A program made the translations under genes and the position numbers. Shown here piece by piece: positions 8,947 to 64,000 of a DNA stretch of 64,000 nucleotides. The stretch lies in the NCBI RefSeq assembly GCF_020886115.1, contig NZ_AP025185.1, positions 124,001 through 188,000 on the forward strand. Direction: 5' to 3'. The DNA is from Flavobacterium ammonificans. GTDB taxonomy: Bacteria > Bacteroidota > Bacteroidia > Flavobacteriales > Flavobacteriaceae. Numbering within the stretch: the first letter of the stretch is position 1; every line of letters begins with the position of its first letter. The notes beneath the pieces were generated by a model. That model saw only the letters and a program-made list of their open reading frames with translations. It made no database searches and was not told the DNA's origin.

Positions 8947-10029
8947 TTACTGAGCACTAACTTTAGCGCCATTAAATAATTTCCCTTCTGCTGAAACAAT
9001 GTATTGTTCGTTTGCCGAAAGTCCTGATAAAACTTCTACTTGATCTCCTGTACTTTTTCCAATGCGCAACCATCTTAAAATAGCTACATTACCAGTTCCA
9101 ACAGTATAGATTCCTGTCAACTGACCTTGGTGTACCAAAGCTGATTGAGGCACTAAAACTGTAGTTGTTTTGGCTGTAGTTTGATTCTTGTTCTCAATTG
9201 GGAATTGTACATTCACAAACATTCCCGAAAGGATTTTGTTGGATGTTTTGGCTAAATTGATTTTAACCAAATACTGACCACCCGTGTTTTTGGCCGAAAC
9301 ACTCACTTCGGCTACTTTTCCACTAATAGTTGTATTGTTCGATTTTACCAAAACCGTAACGGGCATTCCTTTAGTAATACTATTAATATCACTCTCAGCT
9401 ACCATAGCTGTAACTTGCAAACGAGAAGCACCTTCAATGCTCACCAAAGGCATTCCAGGATTAGCCATATCGCCTTCTTTAACAAATGTATTCGTTACTT
9501 CTCCTGAAAATGGAGCGGTAATATTAGAATACGAAAATTGTGCTTGTACTTCGTTACGCATTTGCTTAGCACCTTCTAAACCTGCTTTTGCCATTTCGTA
9601 GCGAGCGGTCATATCGTCTAATTCTTTTTGAGAAGCACTTTGTTGTTTGAACAAATTGGTAAAACGATCATAATCTTTTTTAGCATTATTATACCCTGCA
9701 GTAGCTTGCAAAATAGAAGCTTCTACTTGTGCTTTTTTAGCTTGTAAATCCGAACTGTTAATGCTTACCAAAAGTTGTCCTGCACTTACTCGTTGTCCAA
9801 CTTGAACATGAACCTTGGTTACATAACCCATCATACGAGTACTTAAATTAGCACTATTTTCAGCTTCAATTTTTCCACTTGCAGTTACAAATTGACCGTT
9901 GTTAATTGCACCAACACCGCTAAGTTGTACTGTTATAGCAGGCTCGTTAGTTGTTACTTCTTGTTTATCTTTTCCACACGATAAAAATGCGAATGTAGAA
10001 AGGGTTAGGATAGCTATTGTCTTTTTCAT
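8947..10029 (-). CDS. RND efflux periplasmic adaptor (membrane fusion lipoprotein)
   Basis: A 360-residue HlyD/AcrA-type adaptor linking the RND pump to TolC. It has a lipoprotein signal with lipobox FLSCG (Cys18), a biotinyl-lipoyl-like half domain near residues 66-105, an alpha-helical coiled-coil hairpin (about 95-165, ending in NEVQAQFSYSNITAPFSGEV), then beta-barrel and membrane-proximal domains. It is the middle gene of the efflux operon, with gaps of 38 bases from TolC and 73 to the pump gene. Confidence 0.92.
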   Translation of the reverse strand: MKKTIAILTLSTFAFLSCGKDKQEVTTNEPAITVQLSGVGAINNGQFVTASGKIEAENSANLSTRMMGYVTKVHVQVGQRVSAGQLLVSINSSDLQAKKAQVEASILQATAGYNNAKKDYDRFTNLFKQQSASQKELDDMTARYEMAKAGLEGAKQMRNEVQAQFSYSNITAPFSGEVTNTFVKEGDMANPGMPLVSIEGASRLQVTAMVAESDINSITKGMPVTVLVKSNNTTISGKVAEVSVSAKNTGGQYLVKINLAKTSNKILSGMFVNVQFPIENKNQTTAKTTTVLVPQSALVHQGQLTGIYTVGTGNVAILRWLRIGKSTGDQVEVLSGLSANEQYIVSAEGKLFNGAKVSAQ

Positions 10030-50522: not shown

Positions 50523-50526
50523 AAAG

Positions 50527-50599
<73 letters not shown>

Positions 50600-50610
50600 A
50601 TAAAAACAGT

Positions 50611-50645
50611 AAATAAAAAACCTCAAATCAGATTTGAGGCTTTAT
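50611..50645 (-). terminator. Terminator-like hairpin between the two tRNA-Gly genes
   Basis: Stem GCCTCAAATC / GATTTGAGG on the minus strand followed by TTTTTTATTT. It may terminate copy 1 or act as a processing/attenuation signal before copy 2. Confidence 0.75.
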
Positions 50646-50647
50646 AG

Positions 50648-50720
<73 letters not shown>

Positions 50721-51414: not shown

Positions 51415-53835
51415 ATGAAAAAAGTAATCTTTTGCATTAGCCTACTGTTTATGTATTCTTTTCTATACTCCCAGAAAAAGAGTGTAACCTCAGTTCATAG
51501 CAATGAAAAGATTACGATTGACGGCGTTTTCAATGAAGGTATTTGGGCGAAAGCAATTCCTGCAAAAGACTTTGTAATGTGGATGCCCGGGAATGGAACA
51601 GCTGAACCCAATGAAAAACGTACCGAAGTGAAAGTGGTTTATGATAACGAAGCCATTTATTTTGGAGCAACAATGTATGATGATGAGCCAGCAAAAATAT
51701 TAAAAGAACTTAGCCAACGTGATAATTCTGGTATAGCTGATAGAATTGGGATTTTTTTAAATGGCTATAATGATGGACAACAAGAATTTAGTTTTTTAGT
51801 AAGTGCTGCAGGAGTTCAAGAAGATTTTCTTTTTACTGAAAGTAATGGCGAAGACTCCTCTTGGGATGCCATTTGGGAAAGCAAAACACAAATTACAGAT
51901 TTTGGCTGGACTGCTGAAATTAGAATCCCGTATGCAGCACTGCGATTTTCTTCTGAAAAAAAACAAACTTGGGGAGTCAATTTTATAAGGGACTTTAGAA
52001 GAGCTCGAACATTTTACTCTTGGAATCTAATTGACAATAAAATTAATTCTAGAGGCAATCAAGAAGGTATTTTGGAAGGTATAGAAAATATTGTAACTCC
52101 TACCCGATTATTTTTAATTCCGTACACCTCGTTTTACTTAAATTCTAGAGCAAATCAAAGCACACGATATGATTTTAAAGGAGGATTGGATATTAAATAC
52201 GGCCTTAATGATGCCTTTACATTAGATGCGATTTTAGTTCCCGACTTTGGGCAAGCTGCCTTTGATAATGTGATTTTGAACCTTGGGCCTTTTGAACAAC
52301 AATTCAATGAAAATCGTCCTTTTTTTAATGAAGGAACTGAATTGTTTAATAAAGGCGATTTATTTTATTCAAGAAGAATTGGAGGAAATCCTTCCATTAG
52401 CCCACAAGTATCTGATGATGAAGTTGTTTCTTCAAACCCGTCTAAAATAAATTTGCTAAATGCTTTAAAAATATCTGGAAGAACAAAAGGCGGATTAGGT
52501 GTGGGAGTTTTAAATGCTGTCACTGAAAAAACAGAGGCAATTATTATCAATAATCTAACTGGTGAAACACGAAAAGCAATTGTAGAACCATTGGCAAATT
52601 ATAATGCCTTGGTACTTGATCAGCGTTTTGGAACAAATTCGTCCGTCTCATTTGTAAATACGAACGTGACCCGAAATGGAAGTGGGCGTGATGCCAATGT
52701 ATCTGCTGTTTTATTTGACTTAAATACAAAAAAAAATACCTACAATTTATCCGGAGATTACAAGTTTAGTACAGTAAACGAAACTAGTTCTGACACTAAA
52801 ATAGGATATACTTCAAGATTGAATTTTGGAGAAACTAGTGGAAAATTTCAATATGGTTTTGGAGCAGAATACATTTCTAAAGATTTTGACAAAGATGATA
52901 TGGGAATTCAATTTCAAGCTAATTTCCATTCACTTTATTCCAATTGGAGCTATCGCCTTTTAAAACCCACCAATACCTTTAATATGTTTGACATCTATGT
53001 CAATCTTTATTCTGAATTTGATAATAGAACAGGAAGAATTCAACAAGGAATGTTGAATCTTAATTTGAATTCTATGAATAAAAAAAACAATTATTTTGGA
53101 GGAGGATTTAATACAAGACCTTTAAAAACCTATGATTTTTATGAACCGCGAACCCATAACCAAATGCGTTTTCTTGAGATTCCGGAAGTATTTAATGCTT
53201 ATCTTTATTTTTCATCTAACTACAATAATAAATTTGCAGTTGATATAAATCCTTCTTTTGGAATAGCCAATGAAAAAGGCCGAACTGGATATGGATTTTC
53301 GTTCTCTCCAAGATACCGATTTTCAAATCAATTTTCTTTGAATTACACTATTGATTATAGTCATCAGAATAATAATTTAGGTTATGTTGGAAATAACAGT
53401 AGTACTAAAGAAATTTTTATGGGTCGAAGAGATCGAAGCACTTATGTTAACTCTATACAAAGTAAGTTCACAATCAATAGCGACATGAACTTAAACTTAT
53501 CGCTACGTCATTATTTGAGTTATGCTATTTATAGCCAGTACTATAGTTTGAATAATGATGGTACTTTAAAAAAGACATTGAATTTTACAGAAAATAGTGA
53601 TTCTATTTTTAATGCATGGAATCTGGACTTATCCTATTCGTGGTGGTTTGCCCCAGGGAGTCAAATTTCTATTTTATATCGAAATAATGCTGCTCTTTTT
53701 GAAAACGAATTCCAACAAGGCATTAGCAGTAACCTTAGAAAAGTAATTGATAAAAATAACTTAGACAATGTATTCTCTATCAGTGTTCGTTATTTTATCG
53801 ATTACAACTCACTTAAGAGTAAAAAATCCAGTTAA
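51415..53835 (+). CDS. DUF5916 outer-membrane-type protein with CBM9-like domain
   Basis: An 806-residue exported protein with a signal peptide (about residues 1-19, ending FLYSQ). An N-terminal CBM9/DOMON-like beta-sandwich (about 30-215: ITIDGVFNEGIWAKA ... GWTAEIRIPYAALRFS) is followed by a large DUF5916 region of alternating amphipathic strands that looks like an outer-membrane beta-barrel. It ends in an aromatic-rich strand (FSISVRYFIDYNSL). The function of the family is unknown. It is single, 120 bases before gpmI. Confidence 0.85.
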   Translation: MKKVIFCISLLFMYSFLYSQKKSVTSVHSNEKITIDGVFNEGIWAKAIPAKDFVMWMPGNGTAEPNEKRTEVKVVYDNEAIYFGATMYDDEPAKILKELSQRDNSGIADRIGIFLNGYNDGQQEFSFLVSAAGVQEDFLFTESNGEDSSWDAIWESKTQITDFGWTAEIRIPYAALRFSSEKKQTWGVNFIRDFRRARTFYSWNLIDNKINSRGNQEGILEGIENIVTPTRLFLIPYTSFYLNSRANQSTRYDFKGGLDIKYGLNDAFTLDAILVPDFGQAAFDNVILNLGPFEQQFNENRPFFNEGTELFNKGDLFYSRRIGGNPSISPQVSDDEVVSSNPSKINLLNALKISGRTKGGLGVGVLNAVTEKTEAIIINNLTGETRKAIVEPLANYNALVLDQRFGTNSSVSFVNTNVTRNGSGRDANVSAVLFDLNTKKNTYNLSGDYKFSTVNETSSDTKIGYTSRLNFGETSGKFQYGFGAEYISKDFDKDDMGIQFQANFHSLYSNWSYRLLKPTNTFNMFDIYVNLYSEFDNRTGRIQQGMLNLNLNSMNKKNNYFGGGFNTRPLKTYDFYEPRTHNQMRFLEIPEVFNAYLYFSSNYNNKFAVDINPSFGIANEKGRTGYGFSFSPRYRFSNQFSLNYTIDYSHQNNNLGYVGNNSSTKEIFMGRRDRSTYVNSIQSKFTINSDMNLNLSLRHYLSYAIYSQYYSLNNDGTLKKTLNFTENSDSIFNAWNLDLSYSWWFAPGSQISILYRNNAALFENEFQQGISSNLRKVIDKNNLDNVFSISVRYFIDYNSLKSKKSS

Positions 53836-55490: not shown

Positions 55491-55527
55491 TAAAAAAAAG
55501 CTGTTCCGAAAGAACAGCTTTTTTTAT
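55491..55527 (+). terminator. Terminator after gpmI
   Basis: Stem AAAAAAAGCTGTTC / GAACAGCTTTTTTT with a short CGAAA loop, 18 bases after the stop. Confidence 0.92.
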
Positions 55528-55566
55528 AATTAAAAGTTAAATTTTCAATATTGATAGTAATACTAT

Positions 55567-55574
55567 TATATTTG
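55567..55574 (+). promoter_or_regulatory. Candidate -7 element of the LRR-TerC-ABC operon
   Basis: TATATTTG matches TAnnTTTG, 38 bases before the LRR-gene ATG. It is the only good candidate upstream of the seven-gene unit; the nearest TTG is too close to be a normal -33. Confidence 0.45.
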
Positions 55575-55612
55575 CAATTAAATTTGTATAACCAATCTTA
55601 AATGTGAATACA

Positions 55613-56245
55613 ATGAAAAAAATTAACATCATTATTACTTTATGCATTCTGATTTCTCAAAGCATCTTGGGGCAGTCAGAGGATAAATCTAAAGAATTTA
55701 CAAAAATTAATGAAGCTTTAAAGAATCCAGAAAAGGTGTACAGATTGAACTTAAGTAATCAAGAAATTAAATGGTCCACTATCGATTGGTCTAAATTTAA
55801 AAATTTAGAATATATCAATTTAAAAAATGACCATCTAAAAGAAATCCCTGTTGGATTAACTAAAATAAAATCATTAAAAACAATTGATTTAAGTGGTAAT
55901 GATTTTAAAAAACTACCTGAAAGTTTCTCTAATTTAATTAACTTAGAAGAAGTCTATCTTAATGACGAGAAAAATATTGATTTGCCAAAAACATTAGAAG
56001 TTTTAGCAAAACTTCCCAACTTAAAATCACTTCACCTTGAAAACGACAATTTATCTTCTTTGCCAAGTGAAATGTTGCTTTTTAAAAATTTAGAATTTCT
56101 ATACCTCAACGAAAATAAGTTCATAGAAATCCCAAGACTTGAACCTTTGAATCACCTTAAGTTTCTGGATTTAAGTAACAATAAGATTAAACCTGAATTT
56201 CAAGATTTACAAAATATCAACTTCGGTTTTAAAATAAACTTTTAA
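55613..56245 (+). CDS. Small exported leucine-rich-repeat protein
   Basis: A 210-residue protein with a signal peptide (about residues 1-21, ending ILGQ). Six or so leucine-rich repeats of about 23 residues follow (LNLSNQ, INLKNDHLKEIP, IDLSGNDFKKLP, VYLNDEKNIDLP, LHLENDNLSSLP, LYLNENKFIEIP, LDLSNNKI). LRR proteins bind other proteins; the partner is unknown. I use the ATG (MKKINIII); a GTG three codons earlier is possible. It is the first gene of a tightly packed unit, 11 bases before terC. Confidence 0.85.
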   Translation: MKKINIIITLCILISQSILGQSEDKSKEFTKINEALKNPEKVYRLNLSNQEIKWSTIDWSKFKNLEYINLKNDHLKEIPVGLTKIKSLKTIDLSGNDFKKLPESFSNLINLEEVYLNDEKNIDLPKTLEVLAKLPNLKSLHLENDNLSSLPSEMLLFKNLEFLYLNENKFIEIPRLEPLNHLKFLDLSNNKIKPEFQDLQNINFGFKINF

Positions 56246-56256
56246 TTTATATAGAT

Positions 56257-56952
56257 ATGTTAGATGCCATTATTCCATTAATTTCATTGATTGCACTAGA
56301 AGTAATTCTAGGAATAGACAACATTATTTTCATTTCAATACTAGCTGACAAACTTCCTGAAGACCAAAGAAGTAAACTACGCTATTGGGGAATGGGACTT
56401 GCTATGGTAATGAGATTGATTTTATTAGGGTTTATTTCTTGGATTTTAAAACTTGACACAACCTTATTTTCTATTCTTGATACTGAATTTACAGGAAAAG
56501 GAATTATTTTAATACTTGGAGGTCTCTTTTTAATTTACAAGAGTACTAAAGAAATTCATCACAAAACAGAAGCTGCAAACTCAAATACAGAAAACAATAC
56601 TAAAGTCAGAAAATTTAGCAAGTTACTTGGCGAGGTAATTCTATTAGATTTAGTATTTTCAGTTGATTCTATTATTACGGCTGTCGGAATGGTAAATGAA
56701 CTTTGGGTAATGTACACTGCTGTAATTGTTACAGTAATAATTATGCTATTTGCATCAAAACCAATCAGTGAATTTATTTACAAACACCCATCTTTTAAAA
56801 TCTTAGCTTTATGTTTCCTGATGATGATCGGAGTGTCTTTAATTGCAGAAGGCTTGCATTTTGAAATTCCTAAAGGATATATTTATTTTTCAATGGCATT
56901 TGCATTTTTAGTAGATATAATTCAAATGAAAACGACACCAAAAAAAGAATAA
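56257..56952 (+). CDS. TerC-family integral membrane protein
   Basis: A 231-residue polytopic protein of the TerC/Alx family. The two signature helices are LEVILGIDNIIFISILADKLP (residues 10-30) and VILLDLVFSVDSIITAVGM (about 127-145), each with the conserved Asp. About seven membrane segments are present. Family members are linked to tellurite resistance and Mn export (Alx/MeeY-type), so a metal-related role is possible. It lies between the LRR and DUF2490 genes with gaps of 11 and 7 bases. Confidence 0.92.
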   Translation: MLDAIIPLISLIALEVILGIDNIIFISILADKLPEDQRSKLRYWGMGLAMVMRLILLGFISWILKLDTTLFSILDTEFTGKGIILILGGLFLIYKSTKEIHHKTEAANSNTENNTKVRKFSKLLGEVILLDLVFSVDSIITAVGMVNELWVMYTAVIVTVIIMLFASKPISEFIYKHPSFKILALCFLMMIGVSLIAEGLHFEIPKGYIYFSMAFAFLVDIIQMKTTPKKE

Positions 56953-56959
56953 TCAGTAT

Positions 56960-57670
56960 ATGAAATTGAAAGGATACATTTCTCTTTTATTTGTTATGAT
57001 TTTTGGAACAATCCACTCTCAAAATGAACTTGGGAGTTGGAATGTGTTAAATTTTACATTTAAAACTAGCCCAAAATGGAATGTGTTTTTTGAAACTCAG
57101 TTAAGGAGCTTGTCTTTCTATAATCAATTTCACTACTATGAATACAAAGGCGGAGTTTCCTATAAATTAAATACTAATTTTGCAATGACTACTGGACTTG
57201 GTTCATACAACACCTATAGCGAAGGAGGAAATTTTGAGTTGCCTATGCAAAATAGCGAAATTCGAAGTTGGTTTCAATTGAACTTAAAAAATGAATTTCT
57301 CTTAGCCACTATAGAACATCGATATAGAGCTGAACAACGTTTTACATCCAATGGCTTTAGAAACAGATTTAGGTATAGAATAGGAACTGTAATTCCAATT
57401 AATAACAAAAAAATTATTCCAAAAACCTATTATTTTACAGCCTGGAATGAAATTTTCTTTACAGACAACGAACCTTTTTTTGAAAGAAATCGACTTTTCA
57501 TGGGCATTGGCTATGAGTTATCTAATAAAATCGCAGTGCAATCAGGCTACATTCATCAATTTGATTATAAAATAAATGACGAAACAGGTAGAGATTTTCT
57601 AAATATAGCTGTACTTTACACTTTAGATTTGACTAATAAAAATGATTTTTCCCCAATTATACATGATTAA
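56960..57670 (+). CDS. DUF2490 outer-membrane-type protein
   Basis: A 236-residue protein with a signal peptide (about residues 1-20, ending IHSQ). Repeated amphipathic strands follow (LGSWNVLNFTFK, EHRYRAEQRF, FRNRFRYRIG, NRLFMGIGYELSNKIAVQSGYIHQF), typical of the DUF2490 family, which looks like a small outer-membrane beta-barrel. The function is unknown. Two bases separate it from the TetR gene. Confidence 0.85.
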   Translation: MKLKGYISLLFVMIFGTIHSQNELGSWNVLNFTFKTSPKWNVFFETQLRSLSFYNQFHYYEYKGGVSYKLNTNFAMTTGLGSYNTYSEGGNFELPMQNSEIRSWFQLNLKNEFLLATIEHRYRAEQRFTSNGFRNRFRYRIGTVIPINNKKIIPKTYYFTAWNEIFFTDNEPFFERNRLFMGIGYELSNKIAVQSGYIHQFDYKINDETGRDFLNIAVLYTLDLTNKNDFSPIIHD

Positions 57671-57672
57671 TT

Positions 57673-58344
57673 ATGCAGAGTATACTTTCAAATATAATCA
57701 TTTCCGTTAATAACAAATTATACGTAAAAAATCCCGAGACATCTGAACTTGGAAAGAAAATAATTGAGCAAAGTATTTTGTTAATTGACGAAATTGGTTT
57801 TGAAAACTTCACCTTTAAAAAGTTAGGTGAAAAAATAAATTCTAATGAAAGCTCCATATACCGTTATTTTGAAAGTAAGCACAAACTGATGTTGTATTTA
57901 TCATCTTGGTATTGGGGATGGATAGAATACAAATTAGTATTTGGCACCAGCAACATTGAAAATGCGATGGAGAAACTCAAAAAAGCCATTATAGTTGTTA
58001 CAGAAAAAGTAGAGGATGATAATGCCACTTTACATATTAATGAATCGATTTTAAATAAAATTATCATTCAAGAATTTACTAAAACTTTACTAACTAAAGA
58101 AGTTGATGAAGAAAATAAAGAAGGTTTTTTCTTAGTGTATAAACGAATAATTAATCGTATTATTGATATAATTAATGAAGTAAAACCGAACTATGAATTC
58201 AAAAAAAGTCTTGCCTCATCTATTGTTGAGGGAGCGCTTCATCAACATTTTTTAAAAGACCATTTAAAAACAATTACTGATTGTAACGATAACAATACTG
58301 TTACTGATTTTTACATTGATTTAGTTGAAAAAACATTAAAATAA
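57673..58344 (+). CDS. TetR/AcrR-family transcriptional regulator
   Basis: A 223-residue regulator with an N-terminal TetR helix-turn-helix (about residues 28-75: IIEQSILLIDEIGFENFTFKKLGEKI then SSIYRYFESKHKLMLYL) and a helical ligand/dimer domain. It is embedded inside the export operon, 6 bases before the ABC gene, so it probably controls that operon. No operator could be confirmed. Confidence 0.9.
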   Translation: MQSILSNIIISVNNKLYVKNPETSELGKKIIEQSILLIDEIGFENFTFKKLGEKINSNESSIYRYFESKHKLMLYLSSWYWGWIEYKLVFGTSNIENAMEKLKKAIIVVTEKVEDDNATLHINESILNKIIIQEFTKTLLTKEVDEENKEGFFLVYKRIINRIIDIINEVKPNYEFKKSLASSIVEGALHQHFLKDHLKTITDCNDNNTVTDFYIDLVEKTLK

Positions 58345-58350
58345 AAAGTT

Positions 58351-60015
58351 ATGAGTCCAACACCATTACAAAGATTTTATAATTTACTACAAGTAGATAA
58401 AAAAGATATCTCTCAAATATTTTTTTATGCCATATTTTCGGGTTTAGTAAGTCTTTCTTTGCCCTTAGGAATTCAAGCTATTATCAATTTAATCCAAGCG
58501 GGAAGAGTAAGTATTTCTTGGATTATTTTAGTATTGGTAGTAGTTATTGGGGTAGCACTTGTCGGAATATTATCTTTGATGCAACTACGAATTACTGAAA
58601 ATTTGCAGCAAAAAATATTTGTACGATCATCGTTTGAATTTGGTTACCGTTTACCAAAAATAAAGTTTGAAGAAATTTACAATCATTATCCGCCAGAATT
58701 AGCCAATCGCTTTTTTGATACATTAACAATCCAAAAAGGAACTTCAAAACTATTAATTGATTTTTCAACGGCTTTGTTACAAATTGTATTTGGTATTATT
58801 TTATTATCTCTATACCATCCTTTCTTCATCTTTTTTGGAGTTTTACTGTTAATTTTACTCTATCTTATTTTCAAATTTTCCTACTATCCAGGTTTGTCAT
58901 CAAGTATGAAGGAATCAAAATACAAATATAAAGTAGTAGGTTGGCTTCAAGAGATAGCTAGAAATAATTTCAGTTTTAAAAAACAGGAAAATTTTTCTTT
59001 TGCACTTGATAAAAACAACAGTCTTGTTTCAGAATACGTGCATTACAGAGAAAAACATTTTAAGGTAATTAAACAACAATACACACACCTTATCATATTT
59101 AAAGTAATTATAACAGCTAGTTTATTATTAATTGGAGGCTTTTTGGTATTAAACCAAAAAATGAATATTGGACAATTTGTTGCTGCTGAAATCATTATTT
59201 TACTAGTAATAAACTCAGTAGAGAAAATTATTGTTGGATTAGAAAGCTTGTATGATGTATTGACTTCTGTTGAAAAAATTGGACAGATTGTAGATCTTGA
59301 AATGGAAGAATTTAATGCTGAAAAATCAGATTTTTGTTTTACCAATATAGCATTAACAACAGACAATCTTAAATTCAAATTCCCGGATTCTACAGATGAA
59401 ATTTTGTCTAATGTGAATTTGATCATCGAACCTTCGGAAAAGATATTTTTAGATGGAAATAATGGGTCTGGAAAAACAACTCTTATGAGAATTTTATCGG
59501 GTATAATGGAGCCAACATCGGGATCTATATTTATCAATGATGATACCTACCGAAAAATTGATCTGAACCACTATCGTTCTCAGATTAGTGTTATCACTCA
59601 GGGAGAAACTCCTTTTGACGGAAGTATTTTAGAGAACATAACACTCAAGAATCCCGATATATCAAATGAAGATATTAAATGGGCAATTGAATGCGTGAAA
59701 TTAGATTCTTTTATTAAAACTTTACCTGATGGACTAGAAACTAGAATTTATCCTGATGGCAGACAATTATCGTCATCTAATGCACAAAAAATATTACTAG
59801 CGAGAAGTATAATTAACAAACCTAAAATTTTATTTTTAGAGGATCCATTAGACAAAATGGATGAGAAAGCTACTCATGAAATTATAGACTTTTTAACTGA
59901 TTCAAAAAATAAATGGACCATTATTGTATCTTCAAAAAACAACTATTGGGCAGAAAAATGCTCGAGAAAGATTACAATGGAAGATGGTAAAATAATTGAT
60001 GATTCGAAAAAATAA
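58351..60015 (+). CDS. ABC exporter half-transporter with non-canonical ATPase motifs
   Basis: A 554-residue protein. The membrane domain (about residues 20-305) has six predicted helices as in type I exporters, without a C39 peptidase domain. The nucleotide-binding domain (about 330-554) keeps Walker A (GNNGSGKT, Lys375) and the Q-loop (Gln417 in VITQGETPFDGSILENI). Three motifs are unusual: the ABC signature reads LSSSN (473-477) instead of LSGGQ, Walker B reads ILFLED so the usual Asp-Glu pair is Glu497-Asp498, and the switch His is replaced by Ser528. It is co-encoded with HlyD and TolC partners, so it should form a tripartite exporter. Its cargo is unknown. Confidence 0.9.
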   Translation: MSPTPLQRFYNLLQVDKKDISQIFFYAIFSGLVSLSLPLGIQAIINLIQAGRVSISWIILVLVVVIGVALVGILSLMQLRITENLQQKIFVRSSFEFGYRLPKIKFEEIYNHYPPELANRFFDTLTIQKGTSKLLIDFSTALLQIVFGIILLSLYHPFFIFFGVLLLILLYLIFKFSYYPGLSSSMKESKYKYKVVGWLQEIARNNFSFKKQENFSFALDKNNSLVSEYVHYREKHFKVIKQQYTHLIIFKVIITASLLLIGGFLVLNQKMNIGQFVAAEIIILLVINSVEKIIVGLESLYDVLTSVEKIGQIVDLEMEEFNAEKSDFCFTNIALTTDNLKFKFPDSTDEILSNVNLIIEPSEKIFLDGNNGSGKTTLMRILSGIMEPTSGSIFINDDTYRKIDLNHYRSQISVITQGETPFDGSILENITLKNPDISNEDIKWAIECVKLDSFIKTLPDGLETRIYPDGRQLSSSNAQKILLARSIINKPKILFLEDPLDKMDEKATHEIIDFLTDSKNKWTIIVSSKNNYWAEKCSRKITMEDGKIIDDSKK

Positions 60016-60020
60016 TAACT

Positions 60021-61367
60021 ATGCTTAATATTTCTAAAAAAAATCCAATAGAGGAAAATATCGACCAGTTTAGTACTGTTAAAAATTTGGCAAATCGTCC
60101 ACATTATAAAATACTAAACAAGATTATTATATATGTCTCATTGATAGGATTGGTAATTCTATTCCTGCCTTGGACTCAGAATATTTCTGGTTCTGGTGCG
60201 GTTACTACTTTAAAACCAGATCAAAGACCGCAAACCATTCATTCGGCTATTGCCGGTAGAATCGAAAAGTGGTATGTTAATGAGGGAGATTATGTCAATA
60301 AAGGAGATACCATATTGTTCATTTCTGAGATTAAAGAAGACTATATTGATCCCAATTTGATTAAGAATATCAAGAATCAAGTGGAAGCTAAAAAGATGGC
60401 TATGTCATCTTATGATGGCAAAGTAGATGTTCTTAGAAGTCAAATCGATGCTATCGAGAGTGAGAAAAAACTAAAACTAGAACAAGCTAAAAATAAAATA
60501 CGCCAATCGCTTTTGAAAGTTAAAAGTGATAGTATGGATTTAGAAGCGGTAAAAACACAAATCAAAATTGCTACAACTCAATTCAATCGTTCTGTAACTT
60601 TAAATAAAGAAGGATTAAAACCCTTAACAGATGTCGAAGAAAAAAGATTGAAACTACAAGAAGTAGAGGCTAAAATTATTACCCAAGAAAACAAACTACT
60701 TACTAGTAAGAATGAGTATATCAATACTAAAGTTGAAATCAATAGAATCATTGCAGAATATACTGAGAAAGGTTCAAAAGCGAGAAGTGACCAATTTACA
60801 GCTTTAAGTAATCAATATGATACAGAAGCTCAGGTGAATAAGCTAGAGAATCAATTTGTAAATTATTCGATTCGTAATGAAATGTACTTTATAAAAGCAC
60901 CTCAAAGTGGTTATATCAATAGAGCGCTGCAATCTGGACTTGGAGAAATTATAAAAGAAGGAACGCAAATTGTAAGCATTATGCCGTCTAAATACGATAT
61001 TGCCGTTGAAACATTTGTGAGTCCGAATGATTTACCATTAATTCACAAAGGTGAAAAAGTAAGAATTTGGTTTGATGGTTGGCCAACAATCGTTTTTTCT
61101 GGCTGGCCTAACTTAAGTTATGGGACATTTGGAGGAAAAATTGTAGCCGTAGAAAATTTTATTAGTGCCAATGGTAAATTTAGAGTTTTAATTGCACCAG
61201 ATAAAGAGGAAGAGGCCTGGCCAAAACAAATTAGTATGGGATCTGGCGCTCAAACCCTTGCTTTATTAGACAATGTACCCATTTGGTTTGAGCTATGGAG
61301 AACCTTAAATGGCTTCCCTCCTAATTATTACCAACCCAAAGAGGGAAATACTAAAGAAAAAAAATAA
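60021..61367 (+). CDS. HlyD-family periplasmic adaptor
   Basis: A 448-residue adaptor of type I secretion style: a cytoplasmic N-terminus, one membrane helix (about residues 34-54), a split biotinyl-lipoyl domain (about 72-100 and 292-320), a long coiled-coil hairpin (about 115-275, rich in Lys/Glu/Gln) and a C-terminal beta-barrel domain. It would bridge the ABC protein and TolC. It lies 5 bases after the ABC gene and 6 before the TolC gene. Confidence 0.92.
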   Translation: MLNISKKNPIEENIDQFSTVKNLANRPHYKILNKIIIYVSLIGLVILFLPWTQNISGSGAVTTLKPDQRPQTIHSAIAGRIEKWYVNEGDYVNKGDTILFISEIKEDYIDPNLIKNIKNQVEAKKMAMSSYDGKVDVLRSQIDAIESEKKLKLEQAKNKIRQSLLKVKSDSMDLEAVKTQIKIATTQFNRSVTLNKEGLKPLTDVEEKRLKLQEVEAKIITQENKLLTSKNEYINTKVEINRIIAEYTEKGSKARSDQFTALSNQYDTEAQVNKLENQFVNYSIRNEMYFIKAPQSGYINRALQSGLGEIIKEGTQIVSIMPSKYDIAVETFVSPNDLPLIHKGEKVRIWFDGWPTIVFSGWPNLSYGTFGGKIVAVENFISANGKFRVLIAPDKEEEAWPKQISMGSGAQTLALLDNVPIWFELWRTLNGFPPNYYQPKEGNTKEKK

Positions 61368-61373
61368 AATTTC

Positions 61374-62768
61374 ATGTATATGAAACAATTAATTTTAATC
61401 TTAACCCTTTCCGTATCTATTGGATGGGCACAAGATCAAAACTTAAAAGAGCTCAGCTATAATGAATTCTTAGGGTATGTGAAAAAATTTCATCCATTAG
61501 CTAAAAGTGCTAATCTCGAAATCAACATGGCTCAAGCTAATTTGATGATGGCAAGAGGTGGATTTGATCCAAAAATTGAAGTCGATTTTGACAAAAAGCA
61601 GTATAAAAACAAAGAGTACTTTTCGATTTTAAATAGTAGCTTTAAAATTCCTACTTGGTATGGAATCGAAGTTAAAGCTGGTTTTGATAATAGCGAAGGG
61701 ATTTTTGTCAATCCAGAGCATGTTTTGCCGAATCAGGGATTAACCTCTTTGGGTATCAACATTCCTTTGGGGCAAGGCTTATTTATTAATCAAAGGATGG
61801 CCGACCTTAGAAAAGCAAAAATTCAAATTCAATTAAGTCAAGCCGAAAGGAGACTTCAAGCAATTGAAGTGCTTTACAATGCTTCATTAGCCTATTTCAA
61901 CTGGAAAAGAAATTACAATGAAGTGCAACTTTACACAGAATATTTAAATAATGCAGAGATTCGATTTAAAGGAATTACAAGTTTAATTCAAAATGGAGAC
62001 AAACCTCAAATTGATAGCGTTGAGGCAGGAATCGTTTTGAAAAATAGACGATTAAATCTTGAAGAATCACAATTAAAATTAATCAAAGCAAAACTAGAAC
62101 TATCCAACTATTTGTGGCTTGACAATAACATTCCGTTAGAATTACAGGACAATATTATTCCCGAATTTAATCTTGATAAATCTATAGAAGAAACCTTGAA
62201 AATAAATGAGCTTTTAGTAAGTACGATTTCTATAGAAAATCATCCTAAAATAAATGCTATTCAAAACAAGCTTGATATTTTAGAAGTGGAAAGAAAGTTG
62301 AAAGCGAATAGCTTATTGCCAAAAGTTGATATAGGTTATCACTATTTATCTGAGCCTAGTTATTGGAATTCTACTAATTTTAATAATTATAAAATTGGGA
62401 TGAATTTTAATTTTCCCATTTTTCTTAGAAAAGAGAGAGGTGCTTTGCAATTAGCCAAATTCAAAATTCAAGATACAAGACTGTCATTAGAATTAGAGAG
62501 AGTGCAACTTAAGAACAAAATCAATGCACAACAAACAGAAATAAAATCAATTGATAGGCAACGTAAAATTATTATTGATTTAGTAAAAGACAATAGTACC
62601 ATGCTTCGATCTGAAGAACGATTGTTTTCTTTTGGCGAAAGCTCAATTTTTCTTTTAAATACAAGAGAAAATAATCTAGTCATTGCGCAATTATCTCAAT
62701 TAAACCTTGAAAATCGTTTTTTCAACTCAAATGCTGAATTATTTAAGATAATGGCAAATCCGGATTAA
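61374..62768 (+). CDS. TolC-family outer membrane channel protein
   Basis: A 464-residue protein with a signal peptide (about residues 1-20, ending GWAQ) and two TolC-like halves with long helices. It has MADLRKAKIQIQLSQAERRL in the first half and a FGESSIFLLNTRENNL segment near the end. It completes the ABC-HlyD-TolC set and is the last gene of the unit. The next gene, map, has its own promoter-like element. Confidence 0.9.
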   Translation: MYMKQLILILTLSVSIGWAQDQNLKELSYNEFLGYVKKFHPLAKSANLEINMAQANLMMARGGFDPKIEVDFDKKQYKNKEYFSILNSSFKIPTWYGIEVKAGFDNSEGIFVNPEHVLPNQGLTSLGINIPLGQGLFINQRMADLRKAKIQIQLSQAERRLQAIEVLYNASLAYFNWKRNYNEVQLYTEYLNNAEIRFKGITSLIQNGDKPQIDSVEAGIVLKNRRLNLEESQLKLIKAKLELSNYLWLDNNIPLELQDNIIPEFNLDKSIEETLKINELLVSTISIENHPKINAIQNKLDILEVERKLKANSLLPKVDIGYHYLSEPSYWNSTNFNNYKIGMNFNFPIFLRKERGALQLAKFKIQDTRLSLELERVQLKNKINAQQTEIKSIDRQRKIIIDLVKDNSTMLRSEERLFSFGESSIFLLNTRENNLVIAQLSQLNLENRFFNSNAELFKIMANPD

Positions 62769-62774
62769 TAATGT

Positions 62775-62782
62775 TACTTTTG
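62775..62782 (+). promoter_or_regulatory. Candidate -7 element of map
   Basis: TACTTTTG matches TAnnTTTG in the 32-base gap between the TolC gene and map. Confidence 0.45.
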
Positions 62783-62800: not shown

Positions 62801-63619
62801 ATGATTATAGTAAAATCGAAGGAACAAATAGAATTAATGCGTGAAAGCGCCTTAATTGTATCGAAAACCTTAGGAATGATTGCCTCTGAAATCAAAGAAG
62901 GAGTAACTACTTTACATCTAGACAAATTAGCGGAAGAATTTATCAGGGACCATGGAGCAGTTCCTAGTTTCTTAGGATTATACGGATTTCCAAACACACT
63001 CTGTATGAGTCCAAATACTCAGGTAGTTCATGGTATTCCAAACAACACCCCATTACAAAGTGGAGATATCATCTCTGTTGATTGTGGCGCCTTCAAAAAT
63101 GGTTTTCACGGCGATCATGCGTATACTTTTGAAATAGGAGATGTCGCTACTGAAACTAAAAAGTTATTGCAAATCACTAAAGAATCCCTATATGTTGGAA
63201 TTCGGGAATTTAAAGCCGGTAATCGTGTTGAAGATGTTGGAAATGCCATTCAAAAATATACCGAAGCTCATGGATATGGAGTAGTAAGAGAGTTGGTTGG
63301 ACATGGATTAGGCGAAAAAATGCACGAAGAACCTGAAATGCCTAACTATGGCAAAAAAGGTCGCGGAAAATTATTTGTTGAAGGAATGGTAGTTGCCATC
63401 GAACCAATGATTAACCTGGGAACCAAAAACATCAAACAACACAAAGACGGTTGGACAATTACTACTGCAGACAACAAACCTTCAGCACATTTTGAACACG
63501 ATGTAGCCTTAGTAGATGGAAAACCCGAATTGCTTTCGACTTTCAAATACATTTATGATGCTTTAGGCATTAAAAGCAATGAAGAAAATGAGTTTAGAAA
63601 AGATCCAACTTTGATTTAA
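62801..63619 (+). CDS. map: Type I methionine aminopeptidase
   Basis: It removes N-terminal Met from nascent proteins. The 272-residue protein has the pita-bread fold metal ligands in SVDCGAF (Asp), GFHGDHAYTF (Asp), the VGHGLGEKMHEEP His region, AIEPM (Glu) and FEHDVAL (Glu). There is no N-terminal extension. Confidence 0.96.
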   Translation: MIIVKSKEQIELMRESALIVSKTLGMIASEIKEGVTTLHLDKLAEEFIRDHGAVPSFLGLYGFPNTLCMSPNTQVVHGIPNNTPLQSGDIISVDCGAFKNGFHGDHAYTFEIGDVATETKKLLQITKESLYVGIREFKAGNRVEDVGNAIQKYTEAHGYGVVRELVGHGLGEKMHEEPEMPNYGKKGRGKLFVEGMVVAIEPMINLGTKNIKQHKDGWTITTADNKPSAHFEHDVALVDGKPELLSTFKYIYDALGIKSNEENEFRKDPTLI

Positions 63620-63685: not shown

Positions 63686-64000
63686 ATGGAAGATTTATAT
63701 TTAAAAGAAGAGTGCTATAAAATTGTTGGAATTTGCATGGAAGTCCATAAAATTCTAGGGAAAGGACATAGTGAAGTTATTTATGGTGATGCTTTAGAAT
63801 ATGAATTTAGAAAAAATAACATTACCTATTCTAGAGAAGTTAAATACAATATTGAATACAAAGAAATCGTTCTACCTCATTACTATTATGCTGATTTTGT
63901 TTTATTTGACGAAATGATTTTAGAAATTAAAGCAATTCAAAATTTATCAAGTAGCGAAATAAAGCAAACATTAAATTATTTAGCAGCTTCAAAAAATAAA
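63686..64000 (+). CDS. GxxExxY protein (PDDEXK_3-like), 5' part
   Basis: An open frame from the ATG to the window end encodes 105 residues beginning MEDLYLKEECYKIVG. It contains the name-giving motif GKGHSEVIYGDAL and the nuclease-fold-like pair YADFVLFDEMILEIKA (Asp and Glu-x-Lys). This is the GxxExxY family, related to PD-(D/E)XK nucleases. Members are scattered, often horizontally mobile, and of unknown function. The 3' end is cut by the window edge. Confidence 0.85.
   Translation, partial: MEDLYLKEECYKIVGICMEVHKILGKGHSEVIYGDALEYEFRKNNITYSREVKYNIEYKEIVLPHYYYADFVLFDEMILEIKAIQNLSSSEIKQTLNYLAASKNK

Follow-up and report, generated by a model that had tools for sequence, protein, structure and literature searches.

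A seven-gene operon of Flavobacterium ammonificans combines a degenerate ABC protein with accessory envelope genes and might serve inorganic-carbon homeostasis under TetR control

The window analyzed here is a 64,000-nucleotide stretch of DNA from Flavobacterium ammonificans, a freshwater bacterium (contig NZ_AP025185.1, positions 124,001 to 188,000) from a host genome of 2.41 Mb assembled as a single contig. ORF mapping identified seven co-directional open reading frames (ORFs) on the + strand, encoding in order a leucine-rich repeat (LRR) protein, a TerC-family protein, a DUF2490 protein, a TetR-family regulator, an ABC protein, an HlyD-type membrane fusion protein and a TolC-type outer membrane factor (Table 1). 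Pfam domain matches support all seven names, the products are 99–100% identical to their counterparts in F. ammonificans GENT11, and the intergenic gaps are 11, 7, 2, 6, 5 and 6 bp in gene order, the operon layout that an initial annotation of the sequence had described. The terminator which that annotation placed before the unit is also present, separating it from gpmI. On the other side, map starts at 62801, 32 bp after the TolC gene. A promoter-like element had been proposed in this gap, where a motif does lie at 62775, but TAnnTTTG is no more frequent in the window than chance predicts (105 occurrences versus 104.4 expected) and was not accepted by itself as promoter evidence. As the annotation had stated for cargo genes, no unassigned + strand ORF of at least 80 amino acids was found inside the unit, shorter cargo not having been searched for.

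Table 1 Features of the seven-gene unit and of the sequence preceding it (positions in the window).
Feature	Position	Strand	Evidence	Remark
Intrinsic terminator	55493–55525		Perfect 14-bp arms	Downstream of gpmI, separates gpmI from the unit
Palindrome TAGTAATACTA	55555–55565	+	Conservation in relatives	Proposed TetR operator
-7 box TATATTTG	55567–55574	+	Motif (Bacteroidota type, TAnnTTTG), conserved spacing to palindrome	Proposed unit promoter
LRR protein, signal-like N-terminus	55604 (GTG) or 55613 (ATG)–56245	+	Pfam LRR_4, LRR_8	Accessory gene
TerC-family membrane protein	56257–56952	+	Pfam TerC	Accessory gene
DUF2490 protein	56960–57670	+	Pfam	Accessory gene
TetR-family regulator	57673–58344	+	Pfam	Core gene
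ABC protein, membrane domain and degenerate nucleotide-binding domain	58351–60015	+	Pfam, motif alignment, model	Core gene
HlyD-type membrane fusion protein	60021–61367	+	Pfam, NCBIfam	Core gene
TolC-type outer membrane factor	61374–62768	+	Pfam, NCBIfam	Core gene

The ABC protein of this unit has six long predicted membrane-domain helices and keeps its Walker A motif, with a signature that reads LSSSN, a Walker B that reads ED and no H-loop histidine. Residues of the Walker B, signature, Q-loop and H-loop motifs are required for ATP hydrolysis. To place these changes, 107 full-length homologues (from 140, 90% non-redundant, three shorter ORFs excluded) were aligned with four ABC paralogues of the same genome; Flavobacterium is over-represented in this alignment, and the motif check stops short of the remotest matches (29–32% identity). 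The Walker A lysine is retained in 106 of 107 homologues. The Q-loop glutamine is found in 13, the signature residues G475, G476 and Q477 in 2, 5 and 0, the Walker B residues D497 and E498 (the catalytic glutamate) in 12 and 16, both together in 3, and the H-loop histidine in 2. All four paralogues carry the Q-loop glutamine, G476, Q477 and the H-loop histidine, and their Walker B reads DE in three cases and DD in one.

The nucleotide-binding domain (NBD) looks constrained, under purifying selection rather than freely decaying, with ratios of nonsynonymous to synonymous substitution (dN/dS) of 0.04–0.12 in the 14 closest pairs, dS being near saturation in several, and of 0.02–0.06 for the membrane domain in the 13 pairs that yielded a value. 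Mean identity is 56% in the membrane domain versus 37% in the NBD, and the former was higher in 1500 of 1500 sampled pairs; the order was reversed in 6 of 6 paralogue pairs, a rough control, as these belong to different ABC subfamilies. AlphaFold2 gave a confident model with a full NBD (mean predicted local distance difference test score, pLDDT, of 87 for the chain). Eleven homologues are long forms with an N-terminal extension of 157–189 amino acids. In five genomes from three families, the ABC gene ends after the membrane domain (327–339 amino acids) and HlyD and TolC are retained; these five form one clade with a support of 100/100 in an 89-row tree. Two other candidates for an ATPase-less form (G463 and G398) were left uncounted because their genes end at contig ends.

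These features set the system apart from type I secretion (HlyB-HlyD-TolC, LssB type TIGR03375), with which it shares an ABC fold, an HlyD-type fusion protein and a TolC-type factor in one operon. The differences are that the ATPase domain is degenerate or absent and, judged by its motifs, would not be hydrolysis-competent, that no cargo gene was seen, that Pfam matched no C39 domain in the window's ABC protein, and that ABC, HlyD and TolC all score under the cut-offs of the type I models (202.2 bits against 693.1 for the ABC protein and TIGR03375). The exporter had been annotated as complete, which holds for the list of its parts but not for the ATPase motifs. Degenerate-site exporters such as TM287/288, TmrAB, MRP1 and CFTR retain one canonical site, whereas a homodimer of the present protein would have two degenerate ones, and the H-loop and signature are changed here as well. 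What is shared with them is the conserved P-loop next to a changed catalytic Walker B carboxylate, such degenerate nucleotide sites in ABC exporters being described in the accessible part of PMC7756269.

An ordinary efflux or type I export system under TetR control that moves a small molecule or peptide, with an odd NBD hydrolysing ATP slowly or with the aid of a partner and with the accessory genes as envelope helpers, is the most credible alternative to the interpretation developed below, although we regard it as unlikely. The presence of HlyD and TolC, best NCBIfam matches to type I secretion models, the near-universal Walker A lysine and an NBD that is under purifying selection and modeled in full would all agree with such export. 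The joint loss, in most homologues, of signature, Q-loop, Walker B and H-loop residues, the clade with no NBD in the gene and the lack of a cargo ORF of at least 80 amino acids argue against it, as does the finding that the mapped loci contain no second ABC gene between TetR and TolC, a partner elsewhere not having been searched for. Other ABC genes occur nearby in a few loci (L058, L236, L238, L251, L262, L269 and L284). One source labels close homologues of the ABC protein as bacteriocin/lantibiotic exporters despite the degenerate ATPase motifs.

The distribution of the seven genes was analyzed in a set of 60 genomes including that of the window. The ABC protein is encoded in 34 of them (E ≤ 1e-60), and the carriers other than the window's genome include 26 from the same genus. 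Flanks were mapped for 33 relatives' loci, one of which (G031) lies on a contig that begins just before tetR, leaving the upstream genes unseen. The TetR-ABC-HlyD-TolC core recurs across the 33 loci, and gpmI lies upstream of it in 16 of the 26 loci from this genus. LRR, TerC or DUF2490 genes are present at the locus in only 5 of these 26 relatives (G001, G007, G013, G019 and G021), making them accessory to a core of tetR and ABC-HlyD-TolC. The accessory genes form cassettes that range from an LRR gene alone to the longest form (L207), which reads gpmI, iota-carbonic anhydrase, DUF2490b, Fic, MscS, LRR, TerC, DUF2490, TetR, ABC, HlyD, TolC.

The initial annotation had tied the LRR, TerC and DUF2490 genes to the exporter and its TetR and had proposed a survey of conserved linkage. 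For the LRR gene the linkage stood: among 41 LRR loci found in a GTDB-wide scan, 33 have the ABC gene and one has TetR up to the contig end (34/41), and two of the remaining seven lie near contig ends (L162 and L166). It failed for most exporters. The LRR gene also adjoins the exporter in Chryseobacterium, in divergent orientation, and in Dyadobacter psychrophilus, where the ABC proteins are 38–40% identical to the window's and distant in the tree. Among 199 genomes of the genus, that of the window being one, 22 encode TerC proteins of the cassette group (E ≤ 1e-70). The gene adjoins the core or its TetR in 18 of these 22, counting G021, where the locus is split between contigs, and G061, which has no called intact HlyD ORF; the exceptions are G007, G155 and short contigs of G109 and G183. 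The cassette TerC is a separate group tied to the exporter operon, and that of the window is distinct from the second TerC of the genome (G000:C1:1455919), to which it is 47% identical.

Some loci are worth recording in their own right. In G007, a contig segment (G007:C12:406627-410798, locus L124) carries iota-carbonic anhydrase, DUF2490b, TerC, Fic, MscS and DUF2490 genes with neither exporter nor operator, and the LRR gene of this genome is at the exporter locus on a different contig. A Flavobacterium-like contig with the order MscS-LRR-TerC-DUF2490-TetR (L161, G021:C183) belongs to a metagenome-assembled genome (MAG) deposited as 'Bifidobacterium breve', a record that is mislabelled or contaminated. 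A Fic gene lies immediately upstream of the LRR gene in L167 (Dyadobacter) and L166 (Arcicella), and weak matches to the NCBIfam XopAC model were obtained for the LRR protein of the window as well as for a Fic protein of a cassette. Distant LRR homologues were found near the gene for an SPFH-like lipoprotein (named by eye) in L169, L180, L181, L234 and L280; L169 also carries NhaB, and a bare palindrome stands before consecutive SPFH-like, TPR, LRR and CutA1-like genes in L234.

The proposed control region of the window's unit is a palindrome that abuts a -7 box, giving the composite 20-mer TAGTAATACTATTATATTTG (55555–55574). This composite has a single match in the window, where 0.06 would be expected at up to three mismatches. 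The start that had been assigned to the unit, 55567, coincides exactly with the TATATTTG box, and the promoter is now backed by conservation: in relatives, the spacing between palindrome and -7 box is identical, and the composite precedes the leading gene of the unit, be it LRR, TerC, carbonic anhydrase, DUF2490, MscS or TetR. It is also found upstream of tetR in many Bacteroidia. The simplest reading is that the palindrome is the operator of the TetR protein. An exact copy of the palindrome at 9372–9382, within the coding sequence of an RND-type adaptor (named by eye) and with no -7 box, was taken as chance.

Sites with at most one mismatch were counted from -200 to +45 of gene starts in 134 loci with distinct ABC genes, repeats dropped. 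They were found at 58 of 106 TetR genes and 47 of 101 cassette genes versus 33 of 1268 other genes, some of which share an intergenic interval with the unit, and at only 2 of 121 HlyD and 4 of 130 TolC genes. As ORF starts were assigned mechanically, some TetR starts are too far upstream, so that L240 and L241 have the site and were scored as lacking it. A site precedes a TetR, ABC or cassette gene in 96 of the 134 loci, namely in 3/4, 44/48, 32/44 and 17/38 by bands of falling ABC identity, the last being below 45%. The composite was absent from the scanned loci with cassette or carbonic anhydrase genes and no exporter; one of these (L132) has an exact palindrome without the -7 box.

Where cassette genes lie on the same strand as the exporter (39 loci), the leading cassette gene carries the site in 34, and a site lies between that gene and the ABC gene in 37. 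In nine loci, the LRR gene is itself immediately preceded by another copy (L144, L147, L150, L152, L153, L154, L207, L213 and L214). Since the site precedes whichever gene leads the unit, the LRR, TerC and DUF2490 genes look inserted inside a TetR-autoregulated operon. As in TetR-autoregulated efflux operons, tetR is part of the unit and a conserved palindrome overlaps the promoter; the difference is that cassettes of envelope genes lie between operator and tetR, some with an extra operator copy. The accessory genes might instead have landed in an insertion hot-spot between gpmI and tetR, with no functional tie to the exporter, as their patchy distribution, the unrelated genes in the same gap of other loci (CoA-transferase-like and type IX secretion system-type proteins, named by eye) and the separate cassette of G007:C12 might indicate. 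We find this improbable in view of the operator at the leading cassette gene, the additional copies before the LRR gene, and the LRR and carbonic anhydrase genes beside a distant exporter in Chryseobacterium and LRR-TerC in Dyadobacter, in a different orientation and context.

The composition of the fuller cassettes points to carbon dioxide and bicarbonate. A cassette gene of 221–223 amino acids encodes a homologue of iota-carbonic anhydrases of solved structure (PDB 7c5v, E 8e-43; 7c5x, E 5e-64) and is a predicted enzyme of this family, with a score below the NF047901 equivalog cut-off (176.6 of 350). In other loci, the same slot before DUF2490b is occupied by a beta-carbonic anhydrase with a signal-like N-terminus, identified by Pfam Pro_CA in L144 and L068 and by BLAST in the remaining loci. 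The filling of one slot by two unrelated enzymes with the same predicted activity suggests that CO2/HCO3- interconversion in the envelope is what matters there. A single ORF in two loci of one MAG (L156, 9116–9868; L215, 11165–11917) encodes a beta-carbonic anhydrase N-terminus continued by a DUF2490 barrel; the active-site region of the carbonic anhydrase is missing, which may reflect a natural deletion or an assembly collapse.

Of 295 Bacteroidia genomes sampled, 135 encode relatives of the ABC protein (E ≤ 1e-70), and of the 136 places at which these occur, flanks were available for 60 and short stretches for 7, mostly for the closer matches. Neighbour genes were clustered in 74 loci, four of which had been selected for their LRR gene. 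Three families ranked highest, each with 7 loci: a 319-amino-acid membrane protein, the LRR protein and a CutA1-like protein. Pfam assigns the first to Sbt_1, the Na+-dependent bicarbonate transporter SbtA. Of the 295 genomes, 76 carry this gene, and in 66 of those it co-occurs with the ABC gene (Fisher P 1e-17, without phylogenetic correction). The two genes are no more than 5 kb apart in 9 of these 66 genomes versus 0.25 expected (Poisson P 9e-12, likewise uncorrected), the nine cases being spread over seven families, and no more than 10 kb apart in ten versus 0.46 expected. SbtA was the only family given a formal linkage test. Among the matches listed, SulP genes lie between TetR and ABC (L241), beside TetR (L275) or downstream (L252), and beta-carbonic anhydrases are near the unit in L238, L240 and L252; MscS is near the unit in L242. 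The exporter's neighbourhood thus suggests a connection with inorganic carbon. SbtA, SulP and beta- or iota-carbonic anhydrases, the inorganic-carbon genes of heterotrophs, recur as neighbours of this exporter family; what differs is that we found no report of such an exporter core in inorganic-carbon supply.

The initial annotation had raised a metal- or envelope-stress export system as a hypothesis. Nothing pointing specifically to export of metal or tellurite was found, the recurrent neighbours being carbonic anhydrases, SbtA, SulP and MscS, and the ABC protein is without the motifs of an ATP-hydrolysing pump. The window's TerC passes the Pfam model with ease (PF03741, 165.5 bits against a gathering cut-off of 27.8), its nearest NCBIfam subfamilies being YkoY and YjbE; it shares this domain with YkoY/MeeY and differs in falling under the subfamily cut-offs (96.6 versus 138.5 bits for TIGR03716) and in belonging to a separate, operon-tied group. 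A role in manganese handling, with TerC giving Mn2+ to exported enzymes and the exporter and barrels serving metal or envelope stress, would draw on these subfamilies and on MeeY (YkoY), which in Bacillus subtilis supplies metal to exported enzymes and aids surfactin export (accessible parts of PMC10550928 and PMC12096827), but we hold it to be quite improbable: besides G021, whose locus is split between contigs, only 1 of the 33 mapped loci of relatives has a TerC gene, the YkoY cut-off was missed, and no metal-efflux pump was recognized among the recurrent neighbour clusters listed, a CutA1-like gene in 7 loci notwithstanding. For the TerC gene alone a metal role is possible, because TerC relatives supply Mn to exported enzymes in the accessible parts of the same two papers.

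The DUF2490 protein was modeled as an N-terminal helix followed by 11 predicted beta strands in a barrel-like arrangement (AlphaFold2, mean pLDDT 86.5) and is probably an outer-membrane barrel. A relationship to KdgM porins was rejected as not significant (E 0.47). A full-text search found DUF2490 named in 2 papers, and in the accessible part of one of them, PMC10434189, it is a table entry.

Upstream of gpmI lies a large ORF of 806 amino acids (51415–53835), whose homologues precede gpmI in 14 of the 33 mapped relatives' loci, in tandem in 6. Two tandem tRNA-Gly(tcc) genes with equal Rfam scores occupy 50526–50720, and an ORF after map (63686–64000) that may resemble GxxExxY proteins continues past the window end.

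We propose that the unit encodes a trans-envelope system under TetR control that acts in inorganic-carbon and ion homeostasis and whose ABC protein binds ATP but is impaired in its hydrolysis, a tentative reading to which we assign a probability of roughly 45%. The seven genes would be a single TetR-autoregulated operon built on a core, tetR and the tripartite ABC-HlyD-TolC set, that is widespread in Bacteroidia, with the LRR, TerC and DUF2490 genes inserted between operator-promoter and tetR. On responding to a signal, TetR would leave the palindrome and the whole unit would be co-expressed; the three accessory genes are expected to follow because they are located between the operator-promoter and tetR. 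The ABC protein, having retained its membrane domain and P-loop and lost the residues for normal ATP hydrolysis, would form with HlyD and TolC a conduit across the envelope that is gated by ATP binding or otherwise driven, and not a standard type I pump. Its likeliest role would be inorganic-carbon (CO2/HCO3-), ion and pH homeostasis, with the partners seen in relatives' cassettes (carbonic anhydrase, DUF2490 barrel, MscS, TerC) adjusting ions or CO2/HCO3-. The ligand of TetR and the substrate, direction and energy source of the conduit we infer from this setting, and the substrate could be an organic compound. As a more specific form of the proposal, and a long shot, HlyD-TolC and the ABC-derived protein may be a TetR-controlled channel that arose in Bacteroidota, works without ATP hydrolysis and in one clade even without an ATPase domain, is perhaps gated by ATP binding, and moves bicarbonate or another small anion as a bacterial functional analogue of CFTR spanning both membranes.

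Several observations weigh against our proposal. The seven-gene unit of the window itself has no carbonic anhydrase or bicarbonate transporter by Pfam; the sole Pro_CA match of the genome lies ~144 kb from it, beside a SulP gene, and SbtA is 1.36 Mb from the ABC gene. In 58 of 65 class-level loci, no cassette gene was found within 8 kb. SbtA is more than 5 kb from the ABC gene or on another contig in 57 of the 66 genomes that carry both, and the linkage that does exist may be inherited synteny. The cassette also exists without exporter or operator, in G007:C12. At one mismatch, the site is lacking in 38 of the 134 loci, including all four NBD-less loci counted, and below 45% ABC identity it is kept in fewer than half. 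Residual or partner-supplied ATPase activity may also persist.

A full-text literature search, with most subscription papers outside it, returned no published description of the exporter family or of the cassette, no work joining TerC, carbonic anhydrase, Flavobacterium and HlyD, and none joining 'iota carbonic anhydrase' with Bacteroidetes; the terms Bacteroidetes, Flavobacter, carbonic anhydrase and bicarbonate are all absent from the accessible part of PMC8277102. The parts of the system belong to known families, and what is new is a widespread degenerate or ATPase-less ABC protein with HlyD and TolC, together with cassettes nested between operator and repressor gene.

If the proposal is right, a tripartite ABC system would be operating without ordinary ATP hydrolysis, a case relevant to the energy supply of TolC conduits. 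The operator gives direct access to the regulon, and with carbonic anhydrase, SbtA and SulP as context, a role of inorganic carbon in heterotrophic Bacteroidota can be tested directly. The DUF2490 and LRR families, for their part, would gain a functional setting.

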